Below are positions 9,489 to 27,516 of a DNA stretch of 64,000 bases, one piece after another. The DNA is taken from the NCBI GenBank assembly GCA_000320605.2, contig KB445796.1, positions 960,926-1,024,925 of the forward strand, in the 5' to 3' direction. This DNA comes from Gelatoporia subvermispora B (lineage: Eukaryota > Basidiomycota > Agaricomycetes > Polyporales > Gelatoporiaceae). The position numbers were made by a program, and so were the translations under genes. Every line of letters begins with the position of its first letter. The stretch's first letter is position 1. Below the pieces are notes generated by a model. It had not been told where the DNA came from. It did not search any database and saw only the letters and a list, made by a program, of their open reading frames with translations.

Positions 9489-10587
9489 CTACGCAGGTGT
9501 CGCCCACGCCGACAGAGGGTGCAGCCCCCAGTTCTCGAGCCACTCCTGGAACAGCCCCGCAATTTTGATATGCCCGTCGACCGTCGGGTGCATATTGCTA
9601 TACGTTCAATGTACGATAAGTGCCGATACCACCCCGAAGGAGACATATATAAGGACGCACCCGGGGAAGACGTCCTCGAGCGTGACCCAGCCAGTCGTGT
9701 TCACGAGGAAAGTGTTGCGGTCGCCGAGCGCGTGCCTGCGGGGCGCCCAAGGACTTTAGCTTCGCACGAAGATGTGGGGCAAGAGACGTACCGGGTGGCG
9801 ACGATGGTCTCATATTGGCCTGGATAATAGTAGCTGATCGACCCGTCGGGCTGCGGCCAGCCCCACTGCACGTAACGGGTCGTCCGTCAATGAATCGATG
9901 AATTGAGGGAGACGCGGAAGGAACGAAATGACATACAGGCGTGAAGATGAAGAAGGGCTGCGTGTGGTAGAGTGTGCGCAGGCGGCTCAGGAATTCAAGG
10001 TACGTCTGTGGGCGCGTTAGAGATGGCTTGATTCAGAGTAGCCAGCGGATCGTGCCTGAGTGAATGCTTCGGCGGTCACGTTGTTTCCGCTGTCATTGGC
10101 CCTGTGCACGATGCATCAGAGGTTGCCTCGGTTTCGGGGTATGGAGCGTACCCAATGTGGATGACGACATGGGTCGCCGGGGGTTGGTCACGCGCAAAGT
10201 TCCAAGGAGTCGTGTAGTTGTGGTAATCCGTATAGTAATACTGCGTGTCTTCGGTCTGCGATCGCAATTTCAGTTGCAATTCCCTTTCTTATGAACCATA
10301 TTACGTACCACGAAATACTGATAAGACATCCCGTGGACATTGCCATAAGCGTCTATGTCCTGTCGGATTGTGAGTAAGTGCAGGCATATGAATGTCGAAA
10401 AAGCGAGATACGTACGCTAAGAGCAATCCCTGGTTGCGCGTTGATCAAGTGTTCTGCTTTGAAATTTTCGGGAGTGAGGAATGTCCACGCTTGGTCCACG
10501 ATCTGGGGTAGGTATTGCCCCTGAGGTACATTGTATTCGCATTAGCCGTGACCAATGTTCGACACATCATGGTACTTACGGCAGACA
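9489..10587 (-). pseudogene. GDSL/SGNH esterase, C-terminal part (gene split by the KDZ element)
   Basis: Reading leftward, this holds the end of exon 3 and exons 4-11 of an esterase whose first part is at 24301-24912. Exons 10416-10520, 10309-10359, 10152-10255, 10056-10101, 9937-10005, 9792-9865, 9661-9735 and 9489-9597 join in frame. Recognisable blocks are GQYLPQIVDQAW directly after the GDSL strand, THVVIHIGANDSGNN (SGNH block III), WGWPQPDGSISYYYPGQYE, GDRNTFLVNTTGWV and HPTVDGHIKIAGL with the catalytic Asp/His. The first base pairs are the target-site duplication and the restored splice donor. One intron (after 10056) has a GC rather than GT donor. No stop or frameshift was found, so the gene was intact before the insertion. 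Without its promoter this half is not expected to be expressed as an enzyme. Confidence 0.9.
10581..10587. repeat. Left target-site duplication (GCAGACA)
   Basis: GCAGACA immediately precedes the left end of the element and is repeated at 24301-24307 just after the right end. Extending to 8 bp gives GGCAGACA versus CGCAGACA, so the true length is 7 or 8 with one later mutation. Confidence 0.85.
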
Positions 10588-10629
10588 CGAGGGACTTCAC
10601 TTGGGCGGATGCATCCCCGTTGTCTAATG
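10588..10629 (+). repeat. Left terminal inverted repeat
   Basis: Begins CGAGGGACTTCACTTGGG and contains GGATGCATCC at 10607-10616. Aligned with the reverse complement of the right end (GTAAGGACTCAGTTGAG, then GGATGCATCC), about three quarters of positions agree over roughly 40 bp, with one single-base gap; both continue with GTCTAA after the palindrome. Confidence 0.85.
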
Positions 10630-11039
10630 GTGTCCCACAGATGCATCTGACTACAGGCCATTGCAAAGGGGTGTTTGTCAGATACATCCATGTTGGGCTG
10701 GATGCATCCGTACCAGACCGCCATAGAGGTAGATACATCCAGATCGCACCGCTTGCAAAGGTGCATCCGTCGGATGTATCCATAGATGTATCTACGTAGC
10801 AGCACAGATGTATCCGCTCCGTCAAGACAAAAAAGTCCCTTTATCACATTGCGCACACCAGGCTCGAACAACGTTCTACAGGTGCCAGTACAGCTACTCC
10901 GACATAAGCTTGAACGCGACTACTCTTACACGACTGTGGACAATGATTCATTTTGCTCTGGTTCTTCATTCGTCCCTGCACAGTGCTCTAAATGATACAG
11001 ATACATCTGAGCCATCAATTCTATGCCACAGATACATCT
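10607..11039. repeat. Left subterminal array of RGATRYATCY palindromes
   Basis: Ten copies: 10607-10616, 10639-10648, 10680-10689, 10700-10709, 10731-10740, 10772-10781, 10784-10793, 10806-10815, 10999-11008 and 11030-11039, plus a partial one near 10761. Variants are GATGCATC, GATACATC and GATGTATC, always within the same 10-bp palindrome. Spacing is irregular but often 20-40 bp. Such arrays near transposon ends commonly bind the transposase; that role is inferred. Confidence 0.8.
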
Positions 11040-11135
11040 GACATCATATCCTCTACGCACTCCGGCACGTCCCACCCCTTCCCGCCTTCGAATCCATTGG
11101 GCCTGTTACGCCCGTCGCATACTTCGATTTTGCCG

Positions 11136-14100
11136 TTAAAACGTGTATTCGCATCGCCAAGCAGTCGTTCATATCGGAATGACTGTCTGCGTCCAAGCTT
11201 CTGAATGTGTCGTCTCCGCCAAACGACTCGAGGTACTCACTTTCGTGCATATGCTGCCTGACCCCTATGTCCCGCTGCATCCTCCGTGGCGCCCTGCTTG
11301 GTCCAGCGGTCCTGCCAGTACTGGAAGAACCGCACCGTCCTACGCATCTCTTCCTCCAAGAGCAGCTTCTCTTCCGACCACCGTGCTGCCAGTGCACTAC
11401 GCCGGAACCAATGCACTCGTAATGCTGCAGTTAACACATCAGCCAGATTGACGCTCTCGGTAATCACTTGGGTCTCACCATCGTTCATGAAGTCCTTCAC
11501 TGCACCATCCTCGGTCACGTCCAACCACGAGCAGTCTTCCCAGATCCAAGATGACGGTTTCCTGCTATCGCCCAAAGCTCGGTCCTCATCACGCAACGTA
11601 AACGCGACCAAGTCTTCCGGCAGTAATTCCCGTAAATTGCAGTCTTCGGGTTTTGTCGCCAAGGTTATTACCGCTCGTCGTGCTCGCCGATACACGTCTG
11701 CTGCGTGCTGGACAGCTTCCCCCTTTCGCTTGAGGTTTTGCCGTGCCCGAGTAATCACTGCCTGGCTTGCAGGTTCTTTTCTCTTCTTCTGGTTCAATGA
11801 ATACTTCGTGATGAGATGGACACGTACTTCGGCGAGGGCGTCATGTGCTTGACCTTGTCGCAACAGCCGCTCGATGTCAACAGTCGTCTTCAAGTGTTCT
11901 GACTGTAGAACACTCTTCTCAAGATCTGACGGCAGCTCGATGACGATGCCATCTAGCATCTCTCGTTCCTCGGACAATGTCTCACCGACTTGTCCTCCTT
12001 CTCCGTCCTGCATTTCTGTGGCATTATACGCCGGGTCCTTACTCCCATCGGCTCCCCGATCCGACCATGCAGCTGCAATATGCGGACGGAGGAACACGTT
12101 CTGCAGATCACGCCAGACATCTAGGCGGCTATAGAACCGCTCCAGTTTGACCTTGAGTTCGTCGCTTGCTCCGTTCTTGTCGTCGCTCGCATCCAGTTCA
12201 CGGTGCAGGTACAGCCTAGTCCCCTCGCATAAGATGCATATGAAGTGAGTGGCGAATGGCGTACTTTAATTCCTGAAGCTCGATTCCCTCTTGCAATGCT
12301 CCTATCAGGCCATGCCGTTCGCTTTGTTTGCCACTTTTGGCCGCCTGCTGGCTTAGCGTCGCGAGAGCCTGCTTCTGGGATAATACTCGCACGGACTCAG
12401 TATCAATCCCTATATCTCAAACACACTATCTTACCTGTGTCCTTGCGCGGTTCATATGGATTCTTTAATTGAGTGTGCGTGCTGAGGTCCACCACGTTTA
12501 GCAAATACTCCTGCTCGTCCTTCTTCCATTCCTTGATAGTCTCCGGCGCAACCTGCCCCTCCAACTTGACAACTTCGTCTTGAACAGCCTCGCACTCTCG
12601 CGCTGCTTCGTGGTGCCGTACGACGAGTTGCCGTGCTAGCCATCCAGTCAACCATGATCTCTGCACGACACGAGGCATCAAGTCCACTCACCCATCGTGG
12701 TTATCCGTCTTGTGTTCATGTCCGAATGGTGGTCGTTAATGATATCGTGGCGATGTCCAGCAGCCATTTCACGTGTTCGAGCGGACAAGGCGTTCAGAAT
12801 GGCCCAGATGCGTTCCGGTGCTTCCCCGTCTGTCATACCTGCCCCCGGCATCCAGTAGTACGAAAATTTGTAGCGGCACCCGGCGTTGTGGGCGGGGAGG
12901 TGGAACTTTCCGACAACCGACAACGTCTTGGGGAAGCTGACATTCCTGATTGACCGCAGGCTCAAATGGTTCTCTTGGAACCATTTCATGCGCTTCGCGA
13001 AGTTTTTCCGATATTGACAGTTGATGTCATATCCGGAGACATGCAGAAGAAGCGGCATCCATCGCTGGAGCCCCGAGACCATGGCGAAGTCCACATTTGC
13101 AAATCTAAGCATTCGCCCATTAGTGCACTTCATGACCTATGAATGACATATACCTTTCGCCTTTCTGAAGGTCTACGCCTCCACCGGGCAGCACAAACAT
13201 GTGCCGCGCGCAGCTCAGCCCTACCGTCCCCGACACCCGCCCTCCGTATCCACCATATCCCATTGCACCGAATTTATGACAGGTACTCGCCTAGACAATA
13301 TATATACATTATCGGTATGGCAAGCGAGCAGCATAGCACTAACCTCTTTTCCGAGCGGACCCAATTGCTTCTGAAATAATCCGAAGTCTCGCACGTCCGC
13401 AAAGTATCCGGCACCCTCAGTCAGGGCAAAATCATTTGGGTCAGACGGCTTCTCTCGTTGGTTTTGATGAAAATTCCCGTCGACCGTGTGATAGAATGCA
13501 TCTAGATATCTATGCAAGATGTTAATATTGACCGTGGTCTCGCACTCTCACACACCTCAAGTGAGGTGGTCGCGACAACCACGCCGGGTCCATGTTCATA
13601 TTCGGCTGGGGACATGCCGGACATAGAACTGCCAGCGAGCCGGACGGTAGGCTGCGAGCTGGTTCGAGCCCTGCTCGCTTGACCGCGCGCAGCCAAATAA
13701 ATTGCTGCATCGACCGCAGCAATTCGCGGTAACGATCCTATCACAATTTCTTAGCGTACACTGCTACATCACAATGGATGACTGACCATGACAAGGTCAG
13801 GCTGCACGTTGTCCGTCCGACGCTGCAGATAGCGGCAGAAATCCTGCGCACTCATCTGCGACTGCAGTGAGAGCAAGTGGAAATCTTTCAGTACCTCGAT
13901 CGTGAATCCCGTCATGGGTTTATCCCACGACGCGGGCCATATACCGTGTGCAATCAACTGCAGTGCGTCCGGCATTGCCTCCAGTTCATCGTCCAAACAT
14001 GCACAGAAATGTACTCCCATCTCGGTCAGACCATGCCCATGGACAATGGTCATGTTGCGCGCCTTCGATGACGCCACCGGACACATGTGACCACCATGCC

Positions 14101-14780
14101 CTAACTTCAAGGTGACTCCGAGCGCACCAAGTGACTCCCGATGCCAAAAGCCACGACCCACATCCCAGACATCCACACGATGGAGGGGATTATGCTCGTG
14201 TGCGTCCCGCAGGCAGCTTTGGCATAATAAGGGCGCGACGAAGCAATCCACGCAGCGGTATGCGGGCTCATTTTCTAAACCTTGTTCATCTTCTTGTCGA
14301 CCTACAATGGCTGTGCCGCACTGCTGACACTCATCAAGAGGGGGAGGTTCCTCGATGGCCAACCAGGTCGCCAGGGCACGTCGAGCCCAACGTGCCACGA
14401 ACTGGGCCAGGTGTACTGAACGTGGCTGTAAATGCATTCAGTAACTGTACGCTCAAGCTGATGAAACTCACTGTGTTCTGCCCGACCTGTGCTCCGTTGT
14501 TCTTCTGTCTTGTGCTGGCTGCTGGGTCGGCTTGGGATGATATTCCGTGCTGCGCGGCTTCCATGAGCACAGAGTGTAGGGCCGTTGGCACGAACCTTTC
14601 TGCTTCGTTCTCCCCACCCGCCTCATCACTCGTACTAGTAGACTTCTTCAACCCACCCCATACATCGTAACGCGCGAAGGATGGTGTGGATAGTGTTGAT
14701 CTTTTGCGAGGGGATCGGGCGACCTGCTGGAACGTGCTGTTGAGGCGTCCGGTCTTGCGTCGCGACTGTGGAGTACGCAT
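11136..14780 (-). CDS. KDZ transposase with CxC2 cysteine cluster
   Basis: Ten exons join in frame: 14472-14780, 13787-14425, 13556-13737, 13344-13509, 13154-13290, 12692-13104, 12435-12635, 12265-12385, 11241-12215 and 11136-11187, giving about 1064 residues. An N-terminal basic region is followed by a CxC2-type zinc cluster (CQQCG near residue 137, then YRCVDCF...LLCQSCLRDAHEHNPLHRV to about 195 and GHGGHMCP). The transposase core shows the first acidic block TVDGNF (about 387), YDINCQY (about 500), KFHLPAHN (about 533) and DGEAPERIW (about 560), the acidic and histidine blocks diagnostic of KDZ enzymes of the RNase H fold. The remainder is a long alpha-helical C-terminal region. Every donor and acceptor is plausible and there is no lesion, so the enzyme is probably functional. 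It is read toward the left terminus; its start is the ATG at 14780. Confidence 0.93.
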
Positions 14781-15765
14781 CTAGGCAAAGTCTGCACTAC
14801 GCGCCTATGTTGGCGCCCTAGCATGGCGCTTCAGTCTCATGTGGCTGAACTGTCAAACACACCATTGTCCCTCTCACTACTCCTAGCAAGCGGTTTTCGG
14901 CCTGGAAATGACACCTAAATACTTGGAAGGGATGCCCGATCTAGTGCATGCACAGTTTGTGTGCCAGCAAAAGTGCTGCACATAGCTCCGGTCACCTAAT
15001 TTGTGTGCGCCCATGATCAGGTCTTGAACGAAGTCCAATCCTCATTGCGAAACCTACCCCGTATGTCCGCCCATTTTGTGCACCCACAATGCGCATCACC
15101 ACTTCCCACCAATCTCGGCTTTGCTCGCGAGTTCAATGTATGCTCGTCTCGGTACTGTGTTGGTCTCCCTGTTTCGTATGTGCCCATTATGAAGTATTGC
15201 TTGAACCATGTACATTCTCTAGCAATGCGGGCCACCGCTTCTCGATCTCGGCTCTGACACCTCGCTAATTTGTGGTACCAACAACCATAGTACTAAGAGC
15301 CCGCAGCATCTGCGCATTTGCCTTCCTCTGCGCGATAGCCTTCCTCTGCGTGATCGCTACGCTATATTACCAAGACCACGCAGCGTCTCCGCGTTCGCCT
15401 TCCTCTTCGCCATCGACATAGTACTAAGAGCGCGGAGGGCAAGGGACAAAAACACCAGTGTGCGCGTGTGACTTGCGACAGTCACAGACAGCGACAGCAA
15501 CGGTCGGGTTTTCAAGATGCACACAGTAACGATGAGCCGCACAGCGAGAGAAATGACCAATTATTTATTATGTACCTGCCGGTTACTCCCTACAGCGTCC
15601 GTCTCTCCTGACTGCAATACCGCAAGCATGAGTCTAGCAATGCCTCATACAGTCCCCCAACAGCCCGGGGCAACGCACACGCTCAAGCCTGGTTCTGTAG
15701 ACCATGTGAAACAAGCTAGATCCTTGTGAGATAAGTCAAAACTGAGAGATCATTGCTTCGCTCAC
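14781..15765. other. Spacer within the element
   Basis: No gene supported. Around 15290-15440 there is a short degenerate repeat: TAGTACTAAGAGC and GCCTTCCTCT(G/T)CG each occur twice. The right side may hold the 3' end of the small gene at 15766-16191. Confidence 0.4.
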
Positions 15766-16191
15766 CTAGGTATATTGCGAGGTTGGACGGCTTGGGGTAA
15801 TTGACCGCTTCAATGAGATGGCAATTGATGCTTCAGCCATTGATAAATCCTCTGTCCCTACTTGTGAGAATGAGACAGAGAGAGATTTGGCTGCAGGTAC
15901 CTCGGGCGTTGAGAACAGGCGTATATCACGTTCCTCGCCGGTCTCCGGGCCCTTGCGCATGAGGTTTGCGCGCTCCACAGGATCGACAATGCAAGCTTGA
16001 CGTTCAGCGAAGTCTTCGTCCGATTCTGTGGGTTGGGCTTCGCCGAAATGGTCCAAATATTGTATCATGAGGACGCGGGTTACATGACGATGGAAACCCC
16101 GTTCAGCGCTGTGGATGATATCGACCACTTCTTGAGAGTGGTACGCCTCTGAGACAACTTGGAGTTCCTTGGATCGCCACATGTTAGCCAT
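15766..16191 (-). CDS. Small cargo protein, unrecognised
   Basis: A single uninterrupted frame of 141 residues starting MANMWRSKELQVV. I do not recognise the family. The middle is acidic (ESDEDFAERQ) and helical in appearance, with HSAERGFHRHVTRVLMIQYL before it and a Ser/Pro-rich tail. A TATA-like TTTATAG lies about 50 bp upstream of the ATG (near 16236). It lies between the transposase and two more leftward genes inside the KDZ element and is therefore treated as cargo. It could instead be the last exon of the gene at 16542-17301, but a stop precedes it and its own promoter-like box favours a separate gene. Confidence 0.45.
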   Translation of the reverse strand: MANMWRSKELQVVSEAYHSQEVVDIIHSAERGFHRHVTRVLMIQYLDHFGEAQPTESDEDFAERQACIVDPVERANLMRKGPETGEERDIRLFSTPEVPAAKSLSVSFSQVGTEDLSMAEASIAISLKRSITPSRPTSQYT

Positions 16192-16541
16192 TGTCGTTGA
16201 GGTTGGGATGATGCCGCGCAAATTGTGCTGCGCGGCTATAAAGTATCTCCATCCTCACTTTCCCACACTTTGAAACCTTTGAAACCGTCTGAATGCGAGC
16301 ATCTGGGCACCAGAGCCGTATTAGGGCGGGCATGGAAGGGGATTCGCGACCATGGGCTGGTAGGGTCGAGTCAGGCAATATACTCTATCCTAGTATCGAC
16401 ACATACAGTAGGCGAGGGGAGTAAACAAAAGCAACGCTGTGCAGCCAGCCTAGAATCGGAACTTCTGACGAAAAAACCGCAAATTTACACTAAGGGAATG
16501 CTAAGTGAATTAGCTGACAGAAAGAACCTGAGTTGAGATGC

Positions 16542-17301
16542 CTACCATCGACCCTGTGAGATCAGGGCATGGTCGAGGTTAGCGGCATGAACCATGAGCT
16601 GTCCTTGAGCTAGCAGCTCTACAAATTGATAGAAAACGGCGAGTCGTCGCCTCTGAGCGTGGACCTCCAGTTCGACACCTCCGGAGTTGACATAGGAGCG
16701 GCATTCTGTGGCATGGTCTTCCATTTCGTGGTGGAGGTCCTCAAGCCATTTGCTACGCCAGTCTCCTTCGGGTTCTTTACGTGTCCGCATTTCCGTACAT
16801 AGATCCTCCCAGAGACGCGTCTCATGTCGTTTCATAGACGAATTCCACAGGTCATCCACAGCAGGTTCTTTGCGAACCATGCTGTTTGTATAAGCCCTGT
16901 TCAACTGGGTGAGCACGACACATTGATAGTTACCAATGAGCGACTCACTTGGCTTGGGTATCTAGCTCCCATTCCCGCTCTTTATGTAGAGCTTCCCGCG
17001 CAGCCTTGCTAAGTTTGCGTCGTCCCACACGGTGGATGGCATTGTACCGTCGTTGATACTCTTTACGAGCCTCGGCATGCCTTGTGAGGTGTGACAACAC
17101 CTGGTCATTTACGAATGAAATTCTCGGCAAGTGCACTCACTTTGCATACAAGCCCATCTTGGTCGGCCAGGTATGTGAGAGTGGATGTGGCCGGAGGAGT
17201 GGAGTATGAGGCAACGCAGTATCGCAACCCAGGGTGATGGCGGAAGGTGGGTAGGTGCTGCGAGTAGAAGTCGCTCGCATTAGGGCTTCTATGGTGTCCA
17301 T
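16542..17301 (-). CDS. Basic cargo protein, unrecognised; 5' end uncertain
   Basis: Three coding blocks agree in phase: about 17141-17290, 16949-17100 and 16542-16896, ending with a stop at 16542. Residues seen include ASDFYSQHLPTFRHHPGL, PPATSTLTYLADQDGLVCK, a strongly basic stretch KEYQRRYNAIHRVGRRKLSK, and a helical C-terminal half with many Trp, Glu and Arg (EDLCTEMRTRKEPEGDWRSK). The frame that fits the splice phases has no ATG in the first block, so a further upstream exon is likely; the ATG at 17301 is in another frame and I do not use it. Family unknown; the basic and coiled character would fit a nucleic-acid-binding or structural partner, which is only inference. Confidence 0.45.
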
Positions 17302-17720
17302 ATCGGTTGCTCAGGCTACGATATCCACATCAAGGGTGCATCTCTCATTCTGTTTGTTGGGCTTGTACCGGGCATGTCCCAAGTATATTCCCCCAAATTT
17401 CTGAGCCTATTTGTGCGTCCATGCCTCTTAAATAAATTGCACAAGATGTTTGACGAGCAGCGATGAACAAGCGCCCGTGTTAAGTCTGCGCCCAGTTCCT
17501 GCGACTGTCTAGGTGATTGATGCATATTCCGACCAGAACAATCCCCAACATCTCCGTCAACAAATGAATTCTGGGTATAGAAGCACCGGAAGTGAAGGTT
17601 ATAGAAGCACCGGAAGCAAAGGTTGGAAATGTGGGACATCGACGAGCTACGAGCTGTCATCATTTAGAGAGCATTCACATCATGTATCGTACACAGCAGT
17701 CGTTTGTAATCATACAGTAA

Positions 17721-18323
17721 CTAATGCTGCGGGTACTGATCTGTGGTCGCCCTGCGTAAAGGGAACCAAGGTCTCACTGCCGGCCAGCCGTGGCGGTTGA
17801 CAGCTTCCTCCTCCAAATCGTTACAGTGATGCAGGACCTGATAACACATGTCTCGCCATTCTTTCACCAGTACATCCATTCCCTCGATGATAACGCGAAG
17901 ATGGGCATTTTCGGCTACTGTGGCAATCCCAGCGGTGCCTTTAACGGCCACGACTGCCTCCCGGACAGAGGCCTGCAGATCTTCCAGGGCACGGACCTTA
18001 TGGCCCAGCAGAGCCGCTAGAAATGAGATAGTTTGTGTCAGCGCATACACTTGTGGGTCCCAGTGCACCAACGACGCTTACCCGCGGCGGCTTCACCTTT
18101 CACAGGCTGCGTAGAGGTTGCGTCGGCTGTACTAACCGGCGCATCGGCGATCGTGGAGGTGATGATACCCGAACGACTCGTCGCTGTTGGCGCACGAGTT
18201 CAGAGATCCAGAGACTTAGATCGATGTGAGAAACGACGAACCTGGTCCATCAGGGGCTGGCGATTTAGTTGTAGCAATGGCCAACCAACCAGCTCCAATG
18301 CAATCGGCGCTTGATGCAACCAT
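17721..18323 (-). CDS. Coiled-coil cargo protein, unrecognised
   Basis: Three exons join in frame: 18242-18323, 18082-18183 and 17721-18016, giving 159 residues. The N-terminal third is Ser/Thr/Ala-rich and probably disordered. From about residue 63 (ALLGHKVRALEDLQASVREA) to residue 140 the sequence has the heptad character of a coiled coil, ending in a Trp/Arg-rich tail. The first donor (GTTCGT) is weak. The gene is the last of the leftward set and faces the rightward gene starting at 18945 across a roughly 620-bp divergent promoter region. Confidence 0.5.
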
Positions 18324-18944
18324 GGTGAACGTCAAGTGCAGTTCGGACTTGTGTAAATGCTCACCAACTACATTTACAAGAGCATCTGGGAGGCACATCA
18401 TTCGTCATGGTAGGGATCTCCAGTATTATCCAACCTCGAAAGAACAGTTGTCGAGGAAACAGTTAGCTGCTTATCGGACTACCACGCCTCATGGAAACCA
18501 GGTGACTAACGTGATGGTTTTCTCACACTCCCGAGTTGGTTGACGGCAGGTTTAATGCATCCGACCCACCACTGAACAACACAACTGTGTAAGTTGGCAC
18601 CACATAGCTGGGCAAACGAAAATCGTACTCACTGACAGACGGCAACCAACCGCACCACACTCCGAGCCCCAATAAGCAATAAAGGCACGGGTACTTGAGG
18701 TGGACGGGTTATAGAGCACAGCGATGAAGGCGTCAGGCTATCCCAAGATATACGAGAGTCACTTTATGTATAAACTGGCTGCGGTGGTAGTTGGTGTCTA
18801 TGTTAGCTATGATTAAGTAAACCGTCCACGATGGGTTGCCATATCGAGACTCGCCGCGGCGGAGATCCGCAACATTTGCCTCAATTTTCCAAAGTCCCCC
18901 CCCTTCTCTCCGCGTCTGCAGATCCCTGCACAAACAAGTCCCAA
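18324..18944. other. Divergent promoter region in the middle of the element
   Basis: No gene supported. It separates the leftward and rightward halves of the element. No clear TATA box and no RGATRYATCY palindrome were seen in it. Confidence 0.45.
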
Positions 18945-20889
18945 ATGGGGAAGACTACTTGGCTTCCAAAGGAGCTCGCTCTGTTAGAAGAGCAATATGC
19001 CAGCGACAAAATCCGCACCTTGCTTCGGCCCCCCAGAGCAACGGGTGCGCTCAGCAAAGCTCGCACCGTTATATTGCAAGCGTACAAGGCGAAGTTCAGT
19101 GACCCTTTTGAAGCAGAGACAGAGGCCGAGGTTGCGGCGCGCAAGGCGATGAAAAAATCATCTGCCGGTCAAGCCAACGTCGTGGCGAGAGTTGCTGAAA
19201 CTCCAGAGGATTGTAAGGCGCGCTTGGCCAAAGCAGGGGAGGTGAGTCGTCCAAACCATCAGTCGTGCCAGTCACTGAACGTGGAGAATGCCAGCGCATA
19301 TATTCGTGGGTGAAAGGTCAGAGCGACGGTCAGATGACCCGCCCGCCCGCTGTTGCCCGGATGGATGGAGACCAGCAGCAAGTACGCCGTCTCACAGGAT
19401 GGGATGTATTCAAACGAGAACAAGGGACCAGCAAGACAGAAGATGGGGCAATCATAAAGGATATAGGGAAAAGGACGACCGAATTGCGCGAGCAGTATGA
19501 ACTGCTTGAGGCTGAGGTGAAGGCAAAATTTGAGGAGAAGGCGAATGAGGAGCAGAAAGAGCGGGATCGTGAAGCAGCAGATGCACAAGGCCTAGAGCTG
19601 ACCGAGGAGGAGAAGCGCGTCCTAGAGAAGCTTCGCCTCAAGTAAGTAGAATGCCAGTATTGTTCATTTTCGGCAACTTACCACATGACGACAGGCACGT
19701 CCGCCATATTGACGCAATTATTCAAGGCGCAGCGGACTCATGGCTCAAAAATATCGGCGTGGTTTCAATCACACTGTACGGTGTCATCGACGAATGGGGG
19801 GACTTACAGGCCAATATGTAGGTGACACGAGCCCTGACTCACAGCATGAAGCTGACATTGTAGCAGGAGATGTTCAGGGACAGACGCCGAAGGGAACACT
19901 TTTGAGGACCGTCTGTTCAAGATACCGGAGCTTTTCCGCGAACGGTTGTGCAATCACTTCGAATTATTCTTGTTAGATTGCTTTCAGCGTGAGTTATGGG
20001 TCGAGGATCGTGAACTAGAACAATCACTCACATGTATCACAGGCAGACCGGTCAAATGGGCCAGGAACTTAGCTCCTACTTCAGCAGTACGGGAGGACGT
20101 GCCAGCCGGCTCTACAAAGGTCAAACTCCGGGAGGGCGTGCCGGCTGAATCTGCAAAGGTCGAAGTCCGGGCCACCACAGTACCTATTGCGCCGACTCCT
20201 GAAGCCCTGACTGCTGAACCCACGAAGACTTCTGTGAAGACTAGTCCACTGGCGATCGCAATGACGGACCAACCCATCGCTGCGACTGCCGATATCACGT
20301 CACCTCCAATGCCTTCTGCTCCTGTGAGCGCAACACCGACCGGGCCCACGACTACGCCTGCGTCCACGCCCCCGTCTACAGAGGTCACGAAGTCGATTGC
20401 GCTCACGGAAGAGAAGGAGAGCGGCACGGGGGCTGGCCAAGAACAGACGTACACAGAGGACACGCACCCACCTGTTCTCACTGGTGCTACGGAGGAGAAG
20501 GAGAGTGGCATTGCAGAACAGACTGGAGACGCACAGGAGACGCGGGAGCACAAGGGGCGGGGGCGCAAGAAGTCCTCGAACGAGATGAATACGCAAACTT
20601 CGTGCAGGCAAACACGGGCAAGCTCAAGCAAGACAATGGCTATGGTAGCCACACGATCGCAGCGCGTGCGTACAGCGAGCGCGCGGGCAAGACAAGAGGA
20701 TCTGTGAGTGCCATGATATCCATGTCACGTTGTAGCTGAGTAGAGTGTTGACTAGATTGTCCGCGGAAGTCGAACGAGGTAGCAGGGGAGATCCGTGAGT
20801 CGAATGAGATCTATGTTCCGCTGTAGCTGACTAGAATTTTCACCAGATTGGATGCGCGAGTCGCGCGAGTCGGACGAGGCAAGAGATAA
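18945..20889 (+). CDS. Large cargo protein with N-terminal helical domain and low-complexity tail
   Basis: Exons 18945-19241, 19295-19641, 19695-19817, 19867-19988, 20043-20703, 20756-20794 and 20847-20889 join in frame, about 543 residues. It starts MGKTTWLPKELALLEEQYAS, a pattern (aromatic-rich start, then a long helix and a residue stretch spacing Lys/Arg) often seen in proteins carried beside basidiomycete transposons. The central part has GWDVFKREQ and a Glu/Lys helix; then a folded segment WLKNIGVVSITLYGVIDEWG. The C-terminal half is Thr/Pro/Ala-rich and ends in basic stretches (RGRKKSSNE, RARQE). The last two exons are near copies produced by a 91-bp duplication; without them the protein would stop at 20707 (517 residues). 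Function unknown; nuclear, DNA-binding activity is possible. Confidence 0.6.
20704..20885 (+). repeat. 91-bp tandem duplication making two intron-exon units
   Basis: Two units with identical layout: donor at 20704 and 20795, next exon starting at 20756 and 20847, both spacings 91 bp. Shared text includes GTGAGT, ATGA.ATC, GTAGCTGA.TAGA, then ATTG, CG.GTCG, CGAGG. Both introns keep GT...AG and the frame, so the gene gained an intron and exon by simple tandem duplication. Confidence 0.7.
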
Positions 20890-21036
20890 GTAATGGTAAT
20901 GCAACGTAGAATACATTGCACATAGTACTAGCAGAGCGTTCTCATTTTTGTTCCCGCGACATTGACGCGCATGCAGAGGGCCATACTAGCGCCCATATGT
21001 GGCCTTGCTAGGCGCCTGACATCAAGCTCCATATTG

Positions 21037-21060
21037 CAGATGCATCCATGGATGCATCTG
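21037..21060. promoter_or_regulatory. Perfect 24-bp palindrome upstream of the zinc-ribbon gene
   Basis: Two inverted RGATGCATC motifs joined by CCATGG form one uninterrupted dyad (CAGATGCATC and its exact complement). It lies about 160 bp before the ATG at 21196 and about 30 bp before an ATATATAA box (near 21091). The same motif fills both ends of the element, so this looks like an operator-like site where a protein that binds the ends could also control a cargo promoter; that role is inferred. Confidence 0.7.
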
Positions 21061-21195
21061 TGAATCCGCGAATAAACGGATCGTTTAGCCAAATATATAA
21101 CCCCAATGACAAAGCTACCCCAACAAAATTTTCCGCGCCGCCGGTCTCACACACAACATCTTTGAACTCTGCATCCTCCTCGCGAGCCGCCGCGA

Positions 21196-22950
21196 ATGCT
21201 CATGGTTGCCATCAAGTCTCCTTCAACTAAACAACGGGATGCGAACGCCGCCAAGCGGGAGGCACGATACTCTACAGAACTTCGCGAGGTCGCTGAGAGA
21301 GGGTCGCAGGCGCGTAAGCCGACAACGCCGTGTTTTTGTCGCATCTGTGGACGTCAGACACTCGACGTGAGACTTGCATTTACTCGATGGAATGCAGGCA
21401 AGTGGGTGGGCCCGGTACGTACCCATATCATGTTTGTATTCAGATGACTGACCTGTAGTTAGTGCCCCTCGTGCAAGAGAGTGACTGTGCCGAAGCAGCG
21501 AAGTCCATCGCCGGCACAGCAGGCCCAGATCGAGGCCATCCGCGCATCGGATATGATAGAAAAGGCCAAGAAGAAGGCTGTTAGAGCTCAAGTGGCAGGG
21601 GATGCTCGGATGGTGAGTTGGAAACCGTGGTGGGCTTGCAAAGCTGACTGAGGTATGCAGGCCAAAGGGATCGCCCAGGCTGAGAAGGCAGAAGCACGTC
21701 GAGTCAGTGATGCCAGATCATGCAGAAGTAATCAGATACTTACAATCAATTGCTAGTCGAAGATGCCGCGGACACCTAGTACACCGCGCACGTCTCGCAA
21801 GACCCAACCGCGATCGCCTCATATGCCTCGCACACCGCAAACACCGCGGACACCACACACGCCGCGGACGCCTGCAGCGTCGCGAACGGCGAGTGCCCGA
21901 TCTGCAGGATCTGCCGCGGAGGTGAGCTATTGGATGCGAGTGCATTGCTATATACTAACCTATGGTATCATAGAGTCGGGGTGATCGTGCAACTTCACCA
22001 ATCGAGGTGTCATCCTCGGATGAGGTCGAGAGGTCCTTGGCATCCCTGGTGAGTACTCTTCAAGCTGGTACAATCTATTTGACTCACAAGGACTGGGGCT
22101 CGAGGGGTGGACTCACAAGGACATTCAGTCTGTCGACTTCGAATTTACAGATGCGGAAGACGAGCACGGCGTCAAAAGGACCCTGGTGAAGGATGTGGCT
22201 GGAGGTCGCACCTACATACTACCACTGCAGACCTCCAGTAGTACGCAGGCGGCCAACGGCGACATCACCTCGGACAGCAATGAGGCGTCCGACGCGTCTG
22301 ACGGGGACATTGCGTCGGACAGTAGCGACGCGTTCGTCATCACACCTGGAGCAAAGCGTAAGCGAAGAGTTCGCAAGCTCCATGTGTACGCGCCAGTCGA
22401 CGCGAAGAAAAGTCGCAAGACGATTGACGTCTCGTCGGGCAGCGACACTGAGAATGAGGATGGTCCTCGTTTTATCAAATCCAGCGAGAAGCGGAAAATA
22501 GTGTTGCGGGTCGCGGTATGGAGCTCGGTGTGTGTTTCGCGTGGGTATTAGTCCATGATGACTGACTGCCAACAGGACCAGGAAGCTGCGAATGTCGATT
22601 GGCAGTTCTTGCCGCTCGGAGCAACCACTGTAGGGGAGATATTGCACGACAAGTTTGGGCTTGATGACGATGCTGTGATCGCGCTGTGGGACAAGACGGC
22701 AGGCTGCTGGGAGGGCGAGTACAACAAGGATGCGATTTTCCAGGTCGCTTATGAGAATCGACGGGTGTTGGCACGAGTAATAGGGAGCGGTGAGCTCGGG
22801 AGCGACTTCGGGTGGGAGTTGAAGATGTTGCAGAGAGTGGAGGGGATTACTGCGCCATTCGACTGGGTCCTCGAAGGTAAGAATAAACCAGAGCCGGTGG
22901 AGAACGGCTCACCGGTGGGGAGGAAAGGGAAGGGTAAGGAGCGGGCGTAA
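21196..22950 (+). CDS. Cargo zinc-ribbon protein with (P)RTP repeats
   Basis: Seven exons join in frame: 21196-21414, 21463-21612, 21661-21702, 21757-21921, 21974-22048, 22129-22515 and 22576-22950, about 470 residues; all six introns are phase 0. Near the N-terminus two Cys pairs, CRICGRQ and CPSCKR, about 33 residues apart, look like a zinc ribbon. A helix rich in Ala/Lys follows. Then comes a run of about seven RTP/PRTP repeats (PRTPSTPRTS ... PRTPAASRT), an acidic Ser/Asp stretch, and a basic segment GAKRKRRVRKL that would serve as a nuclear signal. The C-terminal 120 residues (GEILHDKFGLDDDAVIALWD...) look folded and end in KGKGKERA. I do not recognise the family. The zinc ribbon and basic stretches suggest a nuclear DNA-binding protein. 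Second ATG at 21202 is an alternative start. Confidence 0.65.
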
Positions 22951-23158
22951 TTCAAGTAGTAGAGCTGTTATTGCAAAACAAAGCTACGAGTTCAAGTTCT
23001 AGATATTAATGCTTGAATTGCGAGATATAAGAGCAAAGGTACTTATCGTGTTTATACTGGAAGAATGGTGTTGCCGCATTGTGGCGGGCGCGGCGAAGAC
23101 CCGACTTCTGCCGAGGAAAACGAGGTTGACCTGCAACCTCCTGCTTCTTGACTCAAAA

Positions 23159-23865
23159 ATGGCAGCCGACACAAGAATGGGGGAATTCCCATGGATGACG
23201 ATCGTTGTGAGAGAGTATGTACAACCGCTAAATGATGAAAGAAGTGACTCACGAGTGATGCACAGACTGGTCGAGCAACTGTCAGCGTTGTCGTGGCCGG
23301 AGGCCTGCACGTATGCGCCAACACGTGTGCCTCCGGGCTCAGGGTTGCGTCTGGCGGACGAATTGCCTGCCATGCCTACAGGGGCGACAATGGGGATGCA
23401 GGTGTTGTCTGCGCGCGGCCAGGTTCTGATCGTGTTGGTGGTGGCGGCGCTGACAGAAGATTTCAACGGGCAATGGTTGGACCTCCAGTTGCGTACGGCA
23501 GCGGACAGAGAGGCAATGCGAGGGCTTGGTTTCGAGACTCGGCCGAATGGCACATGTGAGTAGCTTTTGAATGAAGGACAGTCCAGTGCGCTGATTCGGA
23601 AGCGCCAGTTGCCGTGCCATGGAGTGAATGGTCCGAAGTGCATGATTACTCGGGCCAGTTGAACAGTGAGAACGCTACGGAGTGGTGGACCGAGGGAGAC
23701 AGAAGCCTGCTCAAGAAGAAAACAATTGTAGGCTGTGAGCTCACTCTAGTGGGTGGTTTGCCAGAAGACGTGCGAGAAGGTAGATCGTTTGCCCAGGGGT
23801 TGAGGCCTGTCCTCCATCGCGTCATGTATTTGTTCGACGCAGACCTAGGGGACGACGAGGAATGA
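23159..23865 (+). CDS. Small cargo protein, unrecognised
   Basis: Three exons join in frame: 23159-23214, 23266-23555 and 23609-23865, giving 200 residues starting MAADTRMGEFPWMTIVVRE. Compact and apparently globular: WPEACTYAPTRVPPGSGLRL, then a hydrophobic strand GQVLIVLVVAALTEDFNGQW, then WSEWSEVHDYSGQL and an acidic end DADLGDDEE. No catalytic motif is obvious. It is the outermost gene on the right side of the element. An opposite-strand frame of similar length covers the same region but has no splice logic, so I prefer this strand. Confidence 0.55.
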
Positions 23866-23936
23866 ATAGTGCATGGCGAGCAGTCAGCGCGGGGGCGAGC
23901 AGTCAGTGCAGGAGATTGCATAGCGGACAGACAGAA

Positions 23937-24011
23937 GTAGATGTATCCATTCTGTAGCCAAGGCGCAGCCGACGGAAGCAGATGTATCCATTCTGTGGCC
24001 AAGGTGCAGCC
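23937..24011. repeat. Two 34-bp direct repeats near the right end
   Basis: 23937-23970 and 23978-24011 are near-identical (period 41): each is an RGATGTATCC palindrome followed by ATTCTGT.GCCAAGG.GCAGCC. They form part of the right subterminal array. Confidence 0.75.
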
Positions 24012-24282
24012 AAAGTACATCCGTAGTTCCGAGGTACAAAGATGTTATCTCAATGTAGCCAGTAATTAGCAGGAACACAAAGCTCTTATGGTGGAGTGGA
24101 ATTAGCATTGTCTTACGGGCTAAATTCTCCGAGTAGCGGGTTCAATTCTTGCAGGTGACGCTTTTCGTGACTTTTGCTCAGGAGGCGCGCTTCACTTATG
24201 GATGCATCTGCTTATCTATTTAGACATCGACCGTTTGACTGGCTGCATCCGTTTGACGTGTTTAGACGTCGCGGATGCATCC
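23939..24282. repeat. Right subterminal RGATRYATCY palindromes
   Basis: Copies at 23939-23948, 23980-23989, 24200-24209 and 24273-24282, with degenerate versions near 24014 and 24242. The outermost copy lies 18 bp from the right end, against 19 bp at the left end, a symmetrical placement. Confidence 0.75.
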
Positions 24283-24300
24283 ACTCAACTGAGTCCTTAC
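24259..24300 (-). repeat. Right terminal inverted repeat
   Basis: Read from the right end inward it begins GTAAGGACTCAGTTGAG and contains GGATGCATCC at 24273-24282; it pairs with 10588-10629. Note that its first six bases, GTAAGG, imitate a splice donor at the junction with the esterase exon, but the phase does not fit exon 4, whereas the genuine donor at 10579 does. Confidence 0.85.
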
Positions 24301-24307
24301 GCAGACA
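24301..24307. repeat. Right target-site duplication (GCAGACA)
   Basis: Second copy of the 7-bp target site, identical to 10581-10587. Confidence 0.85.
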
Positions 24308-24912
24308 GCGAATCTCCGATGAACTGGAAATGAATGTCAGACGGCGTATATGGCAGCAGTTTCGCGCCCTTCGACATCCAATCAATCTTTGCCTAGTGGC
24401 TACTGATGCGATCAAGGACTCACGGGGTTGAGCACAATGTTCTCCAGCTCAAGGCGGTTGTCCTGCCAGCCTGGCACATTGATCCGCACGACACTGGTCG
24501 CCGGCAGCTTGGCGTCATCAGTCTCGTCAGAAGAGACGATCAAGGGGATCTCGTTAGTGCCGGCGGAAACATTCACAGTGTTGAAGGGGCCGTAGTTGAC
24601 GGAGACGCCGAGCTGTACTGTGGGTGACGTTGTATGGTTCCCGAGGTTTAGCGTCAAAGATGAAAGGTCCTGCACATGCAGTTTGAATCCGGTACTTCCC
24701 CTGTGGAGACATTGTTAACTGAGCAGTCGAGAGCCGGCGATCTTTGATAATGTTACATACCACCAGGTTTCAGGTGCTGGATCCCATCGGCCATGAAAGT
24801 GAATGAGAGGGTCGTTATTTTGAACAGAAACCGAGCGCGCGACGGTGTCAGGTGCAGGAGTAGCAGCAACAGCGAGTACCGCTCCCATGACAGCGAGTGC
24901 GGATGCAAGCAT
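24301..24912 (-). pseudogene. GDSL/SGNH esterase, N-terminal part (gene split by the KDZ element)
   Basis: Exons 24761-24912, 24424-24700 and 24301-24386 (truncated) join in frame. The protein begins with a secretion signal (MLASALAVMGAVLAVAATPA), then an N-terminal beta-sandwich-like domain (HFHGRWDPAPETWW, LTLNLGNHTTSPTVQLGVSV, RINVPGWQDNRLELENIVLN) found in secreted fungal SGNH carbohydrate esterases, then KGAKLLPYTPSDIHFQFIGDSLSA, where GDS supplies the nucleophile serine. The element begins one base before the natural splice donor. With the other half (9489-10587) the original protein would have been about 382 residues, probably a secreted deacetylase of plant polysaccharides. If transcribed now it would read into the element and stop. 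Confidence 0.9.
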
Positions 24913-24957: not shown

Positions 24958-25494
24958 TGTACGCCAATTATACTCAGCACGCTGGCACCAATATCAGCCA
25001 ACATCGCAATCATCACGAAGCTCGACGAAAGTCGTTCGTTCGGCATTTGACCTGGGCACATGCACTGTCCGACATTCATCCGGCGTTTCGCTTCGCGCCA
25101 ATGAGATCCTCGTGGCTTTACGCGACCTTGCCATGACCGGTCCCCGTGATCAACAGGAGGTGCAGGCGGTGCGGATGCGGCATTAAGTCCAGGCTCACGG
25201 GACGTGCGGACAGATGAGGAAGATACCGACGCATGTGACCAAGAATTTAGCCACGTGGGTCTGCAAAGAATGCCCAGCGACCTTCTCGCAGATCTTGCGT
25301 CGATCACGATCTGTTGGTGGGAAGCTGCGAGCAGACTTGACAAAGGTCACGTGCCGTGTTCATTAATTTGCATGCGTGATGACATAGACCATATAACAGT
25401 ACCATAACGCTATTTTATGATAGATGCCAACCCGACGTTTTTATTCGTTAGGTAAGGAATTACTACTTCCCCGGTGCTCGGCTGCATGGCTACA
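24958..25494. other. Intergenic region
   Basis: Upstream region of the esterase and 3' flank of the P450. No gene recognised. Confidence 0.5.
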
Positions 25495-27516
25495 TCATCC
25501 CATACAATCGATCGACGTGTCAGAACGCGGTTTGATAACGCATTGGAAGGCTTCAGGATGTCTGCAAGTAGAGCGGCGTGAGCGAATGTCCCATTAATGT
25601 CTCGAAATAGAGCTAACGAAAATGTTCCGGTTGTCATCTTCGGTTCGATCTTGACTGGCTGGCCTTGACTTTCGACCGGCGGTGTTATGTTAAACACTTG
25701 AAGTATACTGGCCACAGTCATGAAGAGAGACATATCGCTGAAGTACCTCCCTGGGCAGATTCTGATAATATGCGATCCGATATAGAATACATAAGCGATA
25801 CAAAGGAATGTGCACACCGTCGACCTGCGCCAAACGCAGCAACTGCGGGATCTCGCACAGATAAGTCCAATTCGCCATTTTTGAGGAACCGTTCAGGTCG
25901 AAATTCCTCCGGATCAGGATACGCCTTGGGATCGTGTAAGATTGCCCTTTGTGATAATTGATAGGATGAAGGAGATTGACATCATATATTAAGCTTTGAC
26001 ATACCAGAGATTTTGGAGCAGAACCGAGCCTGCGGGTATATGGAATCCTCTGTATTCATCATCGGAAATACTCCTGTGAGCTACGCCTAGCGGTAGAACA
26101 GGCTGCCACCGTAGACACTCTTTGCAGAGCGCATTGATATAGTGGAGATAGGGTCGATCCTCGAAGCGTGGTAGTCGTTCGACTCCCACAACGCGCGCGA
26201 GTTCTTCTTGGGCACGCATTTGGACTTGTGGATACAAGACCATTGCAAGGAAGAAGCAGTGCACGACCGTCACTGTCTGTAGATGTCTGAGCATATCACA
26301 CGCTACCGTATGGAATGTTGCTTACAGTATCTATTCCGCCTGGCACGAAAACTGTTGGATAAGAGTGTTAATCGGTCCAGGAGCCAACATACCGGCATAT
26401 ACGGCTGCAGACAAATTCTTTGCAATTTCTTCTTCTTGTGCGTATGCTTCCCCTTCTAGACAGGAGACACGTTCCAGTAGCATGACTGCGAGAGGTTTTA
26501 TATGTGATTTAACATTCTGTCGTACCCATCAATGGTTGAGTACACGATAAAATGTGGTATCGTTACTGATATTTTCTGCCATGGAGCATCCGTCATGGTA
26601 GCTACATCAAGCTTACATGAATTTGCTTTTATCTTGAATCCTCCACCGGGAAACCAGGACGGGATGTACTTGAGGAACGGTAGGAAGTTGACCGGAAATG
26701 CTTAGATGACGAAGACCTCCGAACCAGCTGCCAGGGCGCGCTCAGCTGAAGCGGTCAGCGGGTCGTCCTTCTCTGCCACTTGAATTCCATACGCTACTTC
26801 AAGGCTAGTGGCACCGAAAACACTGCAATATGAAAATAATCAGTATATTTTGAGACCCCGGAAACATGCCACGGAGCGGACTCACTACCGAAGATGGCGT
26901 GCAAATTCGGTCGGCTCGTGGTATAGCAGCCTCAGCAGCCTTCGCGCAGCCTCGTAGTGATATGGTTCGTATTTTGCGACGGCATTTTGGTTCATTAACT
27001 GATGAAAGCTTCTCCGGTGCCTTCTCCACCTCGTTCCATACCTCATCAAACCGGGATTCCAACCCCATCCACTTCTGCAGGTTACTTGTAGTCGGGATTC
27101 CGGATCCACATGTGACAGCACTCACAGTTCGATCATCTCAACAGTGAGTCTATCCGAGTTATTGCTGGAGCGCCTCTCAAGGAGGTCATCGACAGCTTCC
27201 AGAGAGTTTAGGATGACGATAGGTTGGCTGAACGCCCGCAGGAAGATGACATCCCCTAATTGAGTCAAGACGCAGATATGAGCACCCATAGTCAAATTCA
27301 GAGTGCAACACCGTATTCCTTAGACCACTGAGCATATTCCCTCCACGGTAGAAGCTTAGGCAGATGAAGGGCATTTCCGACAAACGGGAGAGATCTGGGT
27401 CCAGGAGGCAGCGGAAGTTTCCGGTACGGGCTGGAGGTGAAGCGATTGATGCGTCCCCATAGTAGTAGGAGAACGAGAGCACCCAAGAGAGCGATGGCGA
27501 ACATAGCAGCTTGCAT
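25495..27516 (-). pseudogene. Cytochrome P450 with one nonsense codon
   Basis: A multi-exon P450 starting MQAAMFAIALLGALVLLLLW (membrane anchor) and KLPLPPGPRSLPFVGN (proline hinge). Further blocks are DVIFLRAFSQPIVILNS, MRYGTRWRRHRRSFHQLM (helix C), PGGIDTTVTVVHCFFLAM (helix I, split by introns), KECLRWQPVLPLG (helix K, ExxR), EFRPERFL, and FGAGRR|ICPGRYF with the haem Cys, an intron falling before ICPG. The end SHPEAFQCVIKPRS is reached through a last intron with a GTTAGC donor, stop at 25495. In helix F/G, the frame reads SEVFVI-stop-AFPVNFLPFLKYIP: the TAA at 26702-26704 sits in an otherwise uninterrupted conserved block and one G-to-T change from GAA would explain it. So it is either a very young pseudogene or an assembly error. 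It resembles the fungal O-methylsterigmatocystin-oxidoreductase-type P450s. Confidence 0.85.

Follow-up and report, generated by a model that had tools for sequence, protein, structure and literature searches.

A stretch of 64,000 nucleotides from the genome of the wood-rot fungus Gelatoporia subvermispora B (assembly GCA_000320605.2, contig KB445796.1, positions 960,926 to 1,024,925), which we call the window, contains an SGNH/GDSL esterase gene split in two by a 13.7-kb DNA element. The element carries a KDZ transposase gene and four further genes, here named g2 to g5, and on both sides it is bordered by the same seven bases. A first-pass annotation of the stretch had proposed that a KDZ transposon was caught inside this gene. 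Our analysis of the sequence leads us to a similar view, held with high confidence: the element is a structurally complete, low-copy KDZ cut-and-paste transposon of a family shared by Gelatoporia and Obba, and it has inserted into exon 3 of the esterase and broken it. KDZ elements are common in mushroom-forming fungi. In our judgement, as far as the excerpts of the literature at hand go, it is poorly known how their ends are recognized and what roles their extra genes play. The locus is laid out as follows.

9489..10580, minus strand: 3' half of the SGNH/GDSL esterase, the last base of exon 3 and exons 4-11 (joined model, protein matches)
10581..10587, strand not applicable: left target site duplication, GCAGACA (sequence)
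10588..24300: KDZ element, 13,713 bp within the first-pass limits; 13,712 bp (10589-24300) by alignment to the ends of relatives
24301..24307, strand not applicable: right target site duplication, GCAGACA (sequence)
24301..24912, minus strand: 5' half of the SGNH/GDSL esterase, exons 1-3 (joined model, protein matches)

The direct repeat GCAGACA, reported in the first-pass annotation as a target duplication, is exact. The bases beyond it differ, so the duplication is exactly 7 bp long, and an eighth duplicated base would mismatch. By simple arithmetic, the chance of an exact heptamer at a preset position is 6e-5. Between the two copies lie 13,713 bases (10588-24300). The first of these, a C, is probably one extra base, with the element proper running from 10589 to 24300, because the ten ends of five elements, this one and four relatives, align over 28 bp without a gap except for this C. 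The ends are thus as well defined as had been claimed, and six related elements support them independently; only the starting base is likelier to be 10589 than 10588.

When the element is removed, the esterase halves join into one open reading frame of 374 residues. The joined gene lies on the minus strand and has 11 exons. Exons 1-3 occupy 24912-24301 together with base 10580; exons 4-11 occupy 10520 to 9489, where exon 11 was delimited by hand count from the reading frame. The element splits the gene at the last codon of exon 3. The predicted empty site reads ...GGCAGACAGCG... The joined protein matches SGNH hydrolases of many Agaricomycetes, and an uninterrupted ortholog in Obba rivulosa is 79% identical to it over 100%. 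In five of seven aligned database proteins, the block GDSLSA-GQ(Y/F)LP runs unbroken across the insertion point; at that point P0001, which is this strain's deposited model CERSUDRAFT_49893, has one extra G, and P0044 has a few extra residues. The earlier statement that the exons fit together only with the element taken out is therefore borne out: the joined frame is open and colinear with intact orthologs. The Pfam Lipase_GDSL match falls below its cut-off (21.1 against 23.6 bits); the gene is identified as an SGNH/GDSL esterase by its full-length match to annotated SGNH hydrolases and its intact GDSL block.

Two details of the esterase model need correction. The first-pass annotation gave exon 3 a length of 87 bases including GDSLSA. 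The GDSLSA block is indeed intact, but that exon would begin with six residues, IDWMSK, that are missing from all seven aligned proteins; an exon of about 69 bases after a 55-nt intron 2, rather than 87 bases after a 37-nt intron, is for that reason more likely. Past exon 7, six of the seven proteins also have an eight-residue stretch similar to VTADAFTQ; to encode it, the gene here would have to use a GC donor in place of GT. Neither correction touches the insertion. A cytochrome P450 gene adjoins the esterase at 25410-26321 on the minus strand (Pfam p450, E 4e-21 for 25989-26321).

Does the element have relatives from which its limits can be judged? The genome comprises 37.7 Mb in 52 contigs; the window is C6:960926-1024925, the element in it is accordingly C6, and other loci are likewise named by contig (C16, C8a, C8b, C21, C10, C13 and C14). 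There are 59 KDZ matches in the genome, which merge by eye into about 35 places. Four transposase relatives align with the window element at the DNA level with 67-73% identity (C16, C8b, C21 and C8a), and two more, C10 and C13, were found through g5 and the element ends. Both ends can be read in all six, which span 8.0-14.0 kb, so that ends were read for seven elements out of the roughly 35 places.

C16, 563417-571412: 7,996 bp, target duplication CTCATTG, within an ankyrin-repeat gene
C8b, 741866-755900: 14,035 bp, target duplication ACGTGGA
C21, 557990-569913: 11,924 bp, target duplication CATTGGG
C8a, 549979-562023: 12,045 bp, target duplication ATTGGGG
C10, 710340-721547: 11,208 bp, target duplication CCCTCCT
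C13, 444716-456333: 11,618 bp, target duplication AAAGTGG

With the window element included, an exact 7-bp target duplication flanks seven of the seven. No clear consensus among the seven target sites is apparent by eye. At C8b, the transposase-side end was set first by its likeness to the window element, and the same heptamer was then found beside the matching far end; at C10 and C13, the opposite ends were examined only once the heptamers adjoining the far ends had been identified. These three duplications come close to independent tests, because one end was fixed before the repeat was matched. The ends of C16, C21 and C8a were settled jointly with the repeat. C10 and C13 are the youngest pair seen: the 1,376 bp compared show 95.5% identity, their likeness stops exactly at the far terminus and their flanks differ (their interiors are partly read as N). 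Within C8b, exact inverted repeats of at least 18 bases enclose each of the segments 753438-754862 and 754962-755659, which are possible nested insertions. Defined ends with inverted repeats, together with a duplication of constant length, are what is expected of a cut-and-paste DNA transposon.

The termini and their surroundings contain a second common feature, a palindromic octamer.

10589..10616, plus strand: transposase-side terminus, GAGGGACTTCACTTGGGCGGATGCATCC; alike in C16, C8b, C10 and C13, less so in C21 and C8a
24273..24300, minus strand: far terminus, GTAAGGACTCAGTTGAGTGGATGCATCC, read inward; aligned with the relatives' GTA... ends
10608..11038: subterminal array of 10 GATRYATC sites (0.05 expected per 500 bp), putative transposase binding sites
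23940..24281: subterminal array of 4 GATRYATC sites (0.05 expected per 500 bp)
21039..21058: internal GATGCATC pair just upstream of g4, a possible promoter or regulatory site

The far ends of all seven elements begin with GTA. In the window element, the two 28-bp termini resemble each other in their inner portions, and copies of the GATRYATC palindrome lie further in. The first-pass annotation had described imperfect terminal inverted repeats of roughly 40 bp. Inverted ends are real, but they are better described as an imperfect repeat of about 28 bp plus GATRYATC palindromes: the arms 10597-10645 and 24244-24292 are 73% complementary, and the palindromes supply part of that signal. GATRYATC occurs 10 times in the first 500 bases of the element and 4 times in the last 500, against 2 in the 12.7-kb interior; the expectation of 0.05 derives from 5 occurrences in 50,273 bases elsewhere in the window. 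The relatives have 10 + 2 sites in their 500-base ends at C16, 7 + 5 at C8b, 5 + 1 at C8a and 1 + 1 at C21 (where the far end covers 412 bases). We infer that these arrays are the best candidates for transposase binding sites.

The first-pass annotation had suggested searching the genome with the ends for other copies of identical length; the six relatives whose ends were read are 7,996-14,035 bp long. No near copy of the window element was detected at the DNA level, only the relatives at 67-73% and one decayed fragment of 771 bp (six of the seven candidates were scored, and the element itself was not listed). Its first 400 bases match only themselves in the genome. The terminus pattern is found exactly only at C6, C8b and C16; with up to two mismatches it gives 7 forward and 8 reverse matches, compared with 1 and 8 for a reversed-pattern control. 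The left end joined to the target repeat gives 17 forward and 14 reverse matches against 22 and 13 for its control, which is chance level, the element itself aside.

Five genes are modelled within the element.

11241..14780, minus strand: transposase, 9 exons modelled, 1046 aa, CxC2 and KDZ domains, putative DDE triad D387/D504/E572 (splice model, Pfam)
15766..17301, minus strand: g2, low-confidence model, about 380 aa, on the same strand as the transposase
18831..20707, plus strand: g3, about 573 aa in 4 exons, no Pfam match beyond an HMG-box-like one below threshold
21196..22950, plus strand: g4, 6 exons modelled, about 484 aa, N-terminal cysteine cluster (by reading), no Pfam domain
23009..23865, plus strand: g5, 2 exons, about 267 aa, no Pfam domain; might belong to g4 as its 3' part

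The transposase model contains no stop codon in its 1046 residues. Its core matches the KDZ family PF18758 (E 7.4e-45, 153.7 bits against a cut-off of 26.6) and its cysteine cluster matches CxC2 best (E 1.4e-28, 99.6 bits against 27), CxC1 also scoring above its own cut-off; the first-pass assignment to KDZ was correct. Gene models throughout are splice-predictor output, with the exon joins of transposase and esterase set by hand, and the transposase models of C8a and C8b each contain at least one doubtful exon. The putative catalytic residues D387, D504 and E572 fall in conserved columns of an alignment with 57 homologs. Columns D393/N395 and D510 are kept in at least 90% of the 57 aligned transposases, and E578 in all of them. 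In RNase H-like transposases, the first Asp lies in a strand, the second follows a strand and the Glu precedes a helix. The predicted structure of the C21 relative (57-row alignment, mean predicted local distance difference test score 83.4, predicted template modelling score 0.80) has D393 within a strand, D510 just past a strand and E578 just ahead of a helix. A Foldseek search with this prediction returned no significant match, most further rows of the fold comparison matching long helices, and a sequence search of solved structures gave no credible match.

The companion genes recur in the relatives. The order transposase-g2-g3-g4-g5 is common to C6, C8a, C8b and C21, four of the five elements read through; C16 lacks g4 and g5. 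A g2 gene is found in all five. In C16, C8a, C8b and C21 it points away from the transposase, in the same direction as g3; in the window element it is reversed, and because of this opposite orientation an inner segment of the element may have been inverted. At the five transposase-bearing family loci g3 is always present, and no other place in the genome has it among the matches listed. Matches to g4 were found at C6, C8a, C8b and C21, at the 771-bp decayed fragment (C8:1209638) and, short and weak, at C13. Those to g5 lie at C6, C21 and C8b and also at C10, C13 and C14; the copy in C8a was missed by the first search and recovered with the C8b protein as query (E 1e-20). Short direct repeats around CATAGTACTAAGAGC occur at 15285-15437, between transposase and g2, and at 20920-20938, past g3.

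No Pfam match above cut-off was obtained for g2-g5 of the window element or for five homologs (g2 and g3 of C16; g3, g4 and g5 of C8b). The HMG-box match of g3 stays below threshold (E 0.02 for one exon, 0.08 for the model) and is not repeated in the relatives. Against the protein database, g4 has no match at E 1e-3 among the best 7,995 candidates, and distant relatives are still possible. At C14:218701-220700, next to a further KDZ match (C14:221937), there are a relative of g5 and a g2-like stretch, so companion genes of this type may be spread more widely among KDZ elements. Together with the palindrome arrays at the termini, the conserved companion genes are of more interest than the points raised in the first-pass annotation.

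How old is the family, and is it active? The transposase is 56% identical to Gelatoporia CERSUDRAFT_118810 and 48-62% identical to four Obba rivulosa proteins; a fifth Obba protein, P0149 (43%), falls outside the clade that these four share with the family. In a quick tree of 114 rows, with several long branches, built from database matches and models from this genome, the family and the four Obba proteins group together in a single clade of 9 rows (support 100), and the Gelatoporia elements are not monophyletic within it. Since they do not form one group inside that clade, several family lineages would predate the split between Gelatoporia and Obba, unless elements were transferred between species. 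The decayed fragment, C8:1209638-1210408, is 89% identical to window positions 21228-21971 in g4. It differs by 58 transitions (43 C-to-T or G-to-A, 15 the reverse) and 5 transversions, and 29 of the 43 are at CpG. This pattern is expected of methylated DNA in decay, and the fragment seems to be the relic of a related element. In the window element itself the CpG observed/expected ratio is 0.96; for the remaining window it is 1.07. An element that moves without multiplying much fits the clean duplications, the open transposase and the failure to find a second copy.

Three readings would change what is said of this insertion. The two esterase halves might come from different loci joined by misassembly, which the first-pass annotation had named as grounds for withdrawing its proposal. 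This candidate was rejected: the duplication is exactly 7 bp, both halves are colinear with a single ortholog, the window contains no N, and six relatives have the same type of junction. Judged on the assembled sequence of one assembly, the chance of such an artefact is negligible. It is also very improbable that the esterase still functions by splicing the whole element out as a 13.7-kb intron. The idea is implied by the public model: CERSUDRAFT_49893, the best database match of the esterase, is one continuous protein of 368 aa from this same strain that spans the insertion site, and it seems to treat the element as an intron. Moreover, the far terminus (24300-24290, minus strand) reads GTAAGG immediately past the duplication; this is close to a consensus donor and lies one base ahead of the donor that exon 3 originally had. 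Splicing from there to the exon 4 acceptor, however, loses one base and shifts the frame. All other introns of the gene are shorter than 100 nt, and the apparent bridging in the public model is a predictor's choice. Finally, the copy may be dead, an old insertion with a non-functional transposase. No second copy was found, the gene models are predictions, and the esterase may already have a weakened splice site, with GC for GT after exon 7. Against this, the two copies of the duplication are still identical, the 1046-aa transposase model has no stop and retains D, D and E, and the CpG ratio points to little deamination, unlike the relic at C8:1209638. We consider a dead copy unlikely. The preferred reading therefore remains a complete cut-and-paste element that interrupts the esterase.

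What the companion genes do is a separate question. We think it most likely that g2-g5 are helpers of transposition or of escape from silencing and not random cargo, since the same gene order is seen in lineages with transposases that have diverged at about half of their residues. That they are passive cargo, outside any transposition or anti-silencing machinery, is nevertheless a serious possibility, though one we place short of an even chance. C16 has clean ends and a target duplication without g4 and g5, no Pfam domain rises above cut-off in g2-g5 or in the five homologs scanned, and extra genes are common on giant transposons (PMC12477816, in the portion available). Such cargo would hardly explain why four elements with transposases about half diverged carry one set of genes in one order, or why g3, among the matches listed, is found only at family elements. 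A fuller proposal in which these genes are helpers is tentative, and we would not put it at even odds: a multi-protein KDZ transposon in which g2-g5 are dedicated parts for transposition or anti-silencing that work with the transposase on the GATRYATC arrays, the family comprising many ancient lineages that arose before the Gelatoporia/Obba split and each persist as one or two complete copies per genome.

On the preferred reading of the element, transposition would proceed as follows. The transposase, an RNase H-like DDE nuclease, would bind the GATRYATC arrays, for which it would probably use its cysteine cluster or the aid of the g2-g5 proteins. It would then pair the ends and excise the element. 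Insertion would take place at a staggered cut of 7 bp, which host repair would convert into the duplication.

The wider value of the locus is that seven elements with both ends fixed, in one wood-rot genome, provide a candidate binding motif, a length for the target duplication and four companion genes without a Pfam domain. The locus also offers an example of a public gene model that apparently runs across a 13.7-kb transposon by treating it as an intron.

How does this family compare with known KDZ systems? The remark in the first-pass annotation that large intact copies with defined ends are rarely described is outdated, as such elements are published (PMC12810828, PMC12730594, PMC12477816, each known to us from excerpts). 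Kyakuja elements belong to the same superfamily and, like ours, make 7-bp duplications, but they are described with 5'-CA..TG-3' termini and no terminal inverted repeats (TIRs) (Kojima 2025, PMC12730594); here the termini are GAG..TAC, with an imperfect inverted repeat and palindrome arrays. Target duplications are published both for the TET-bearing Kyakuja families, which occur in Agaricomycetes, and for those of Dileera; in the excerpted text Kyakuja is the only TET-bearing KDZ group reported in Polyporales (PMC12730594). The Pfam model Tet_JBP found no match in the modelled proteins of our element or in the genome, with the control silent as well and the PE-type TETs very divergent (PMC12730594). 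Zisupton and Dileera share the superfamily, and Zisupton has TIRs, but both are given with 8-bp duplications, compared with exactly 7 bp in all seven elements here (PMC12730594).

The mobile KDZ1-KDZ3 elements of Cryptococcus neoformans, 9.2-11 kb long, resemble the window element in combining a KDZ transposase that has a cysteine cluster with TIRs and insertion into genes (PMC12810828, in part). They differ in having CxC1, long TIRs of 139-241 bp and duplications of 8 bp (KDZ1) or 4-8 bp (KDZ2 and KDZ3); here CxC2 matches best, the ends are short and the duplication is 7 bp. In Pleurotus ostreatus, intact KDZ genes are preceded by CxC2, as in our element (PMC7641404), and in Marasmius oreades TIR motifs of KDZ elements have been characterized (PMC8290104); the available excerpts of these two papers describe neither companion genes nor target duplications. 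The giant KDZ elements of algae, up to 30 kb in Ectocarpus and including a mobile one of 31.7 kb in Chlamydomonas, are likewise large, and many giant families there carry additional genes (PMC12477816, in part). They are algal, reach about 30 kb and in many cases contain nested insertions, and the excerpt shows no link to g2-g5. Compared by description, the published signatures of Kyakuja, Zisupton, Dileera and Cryptococcus KDZ1-3, as far as these sources present them, do not fit the family in the window. What it adds to them is a low-copy KDZ variant with companion genes that are possibly part of its own machinery.

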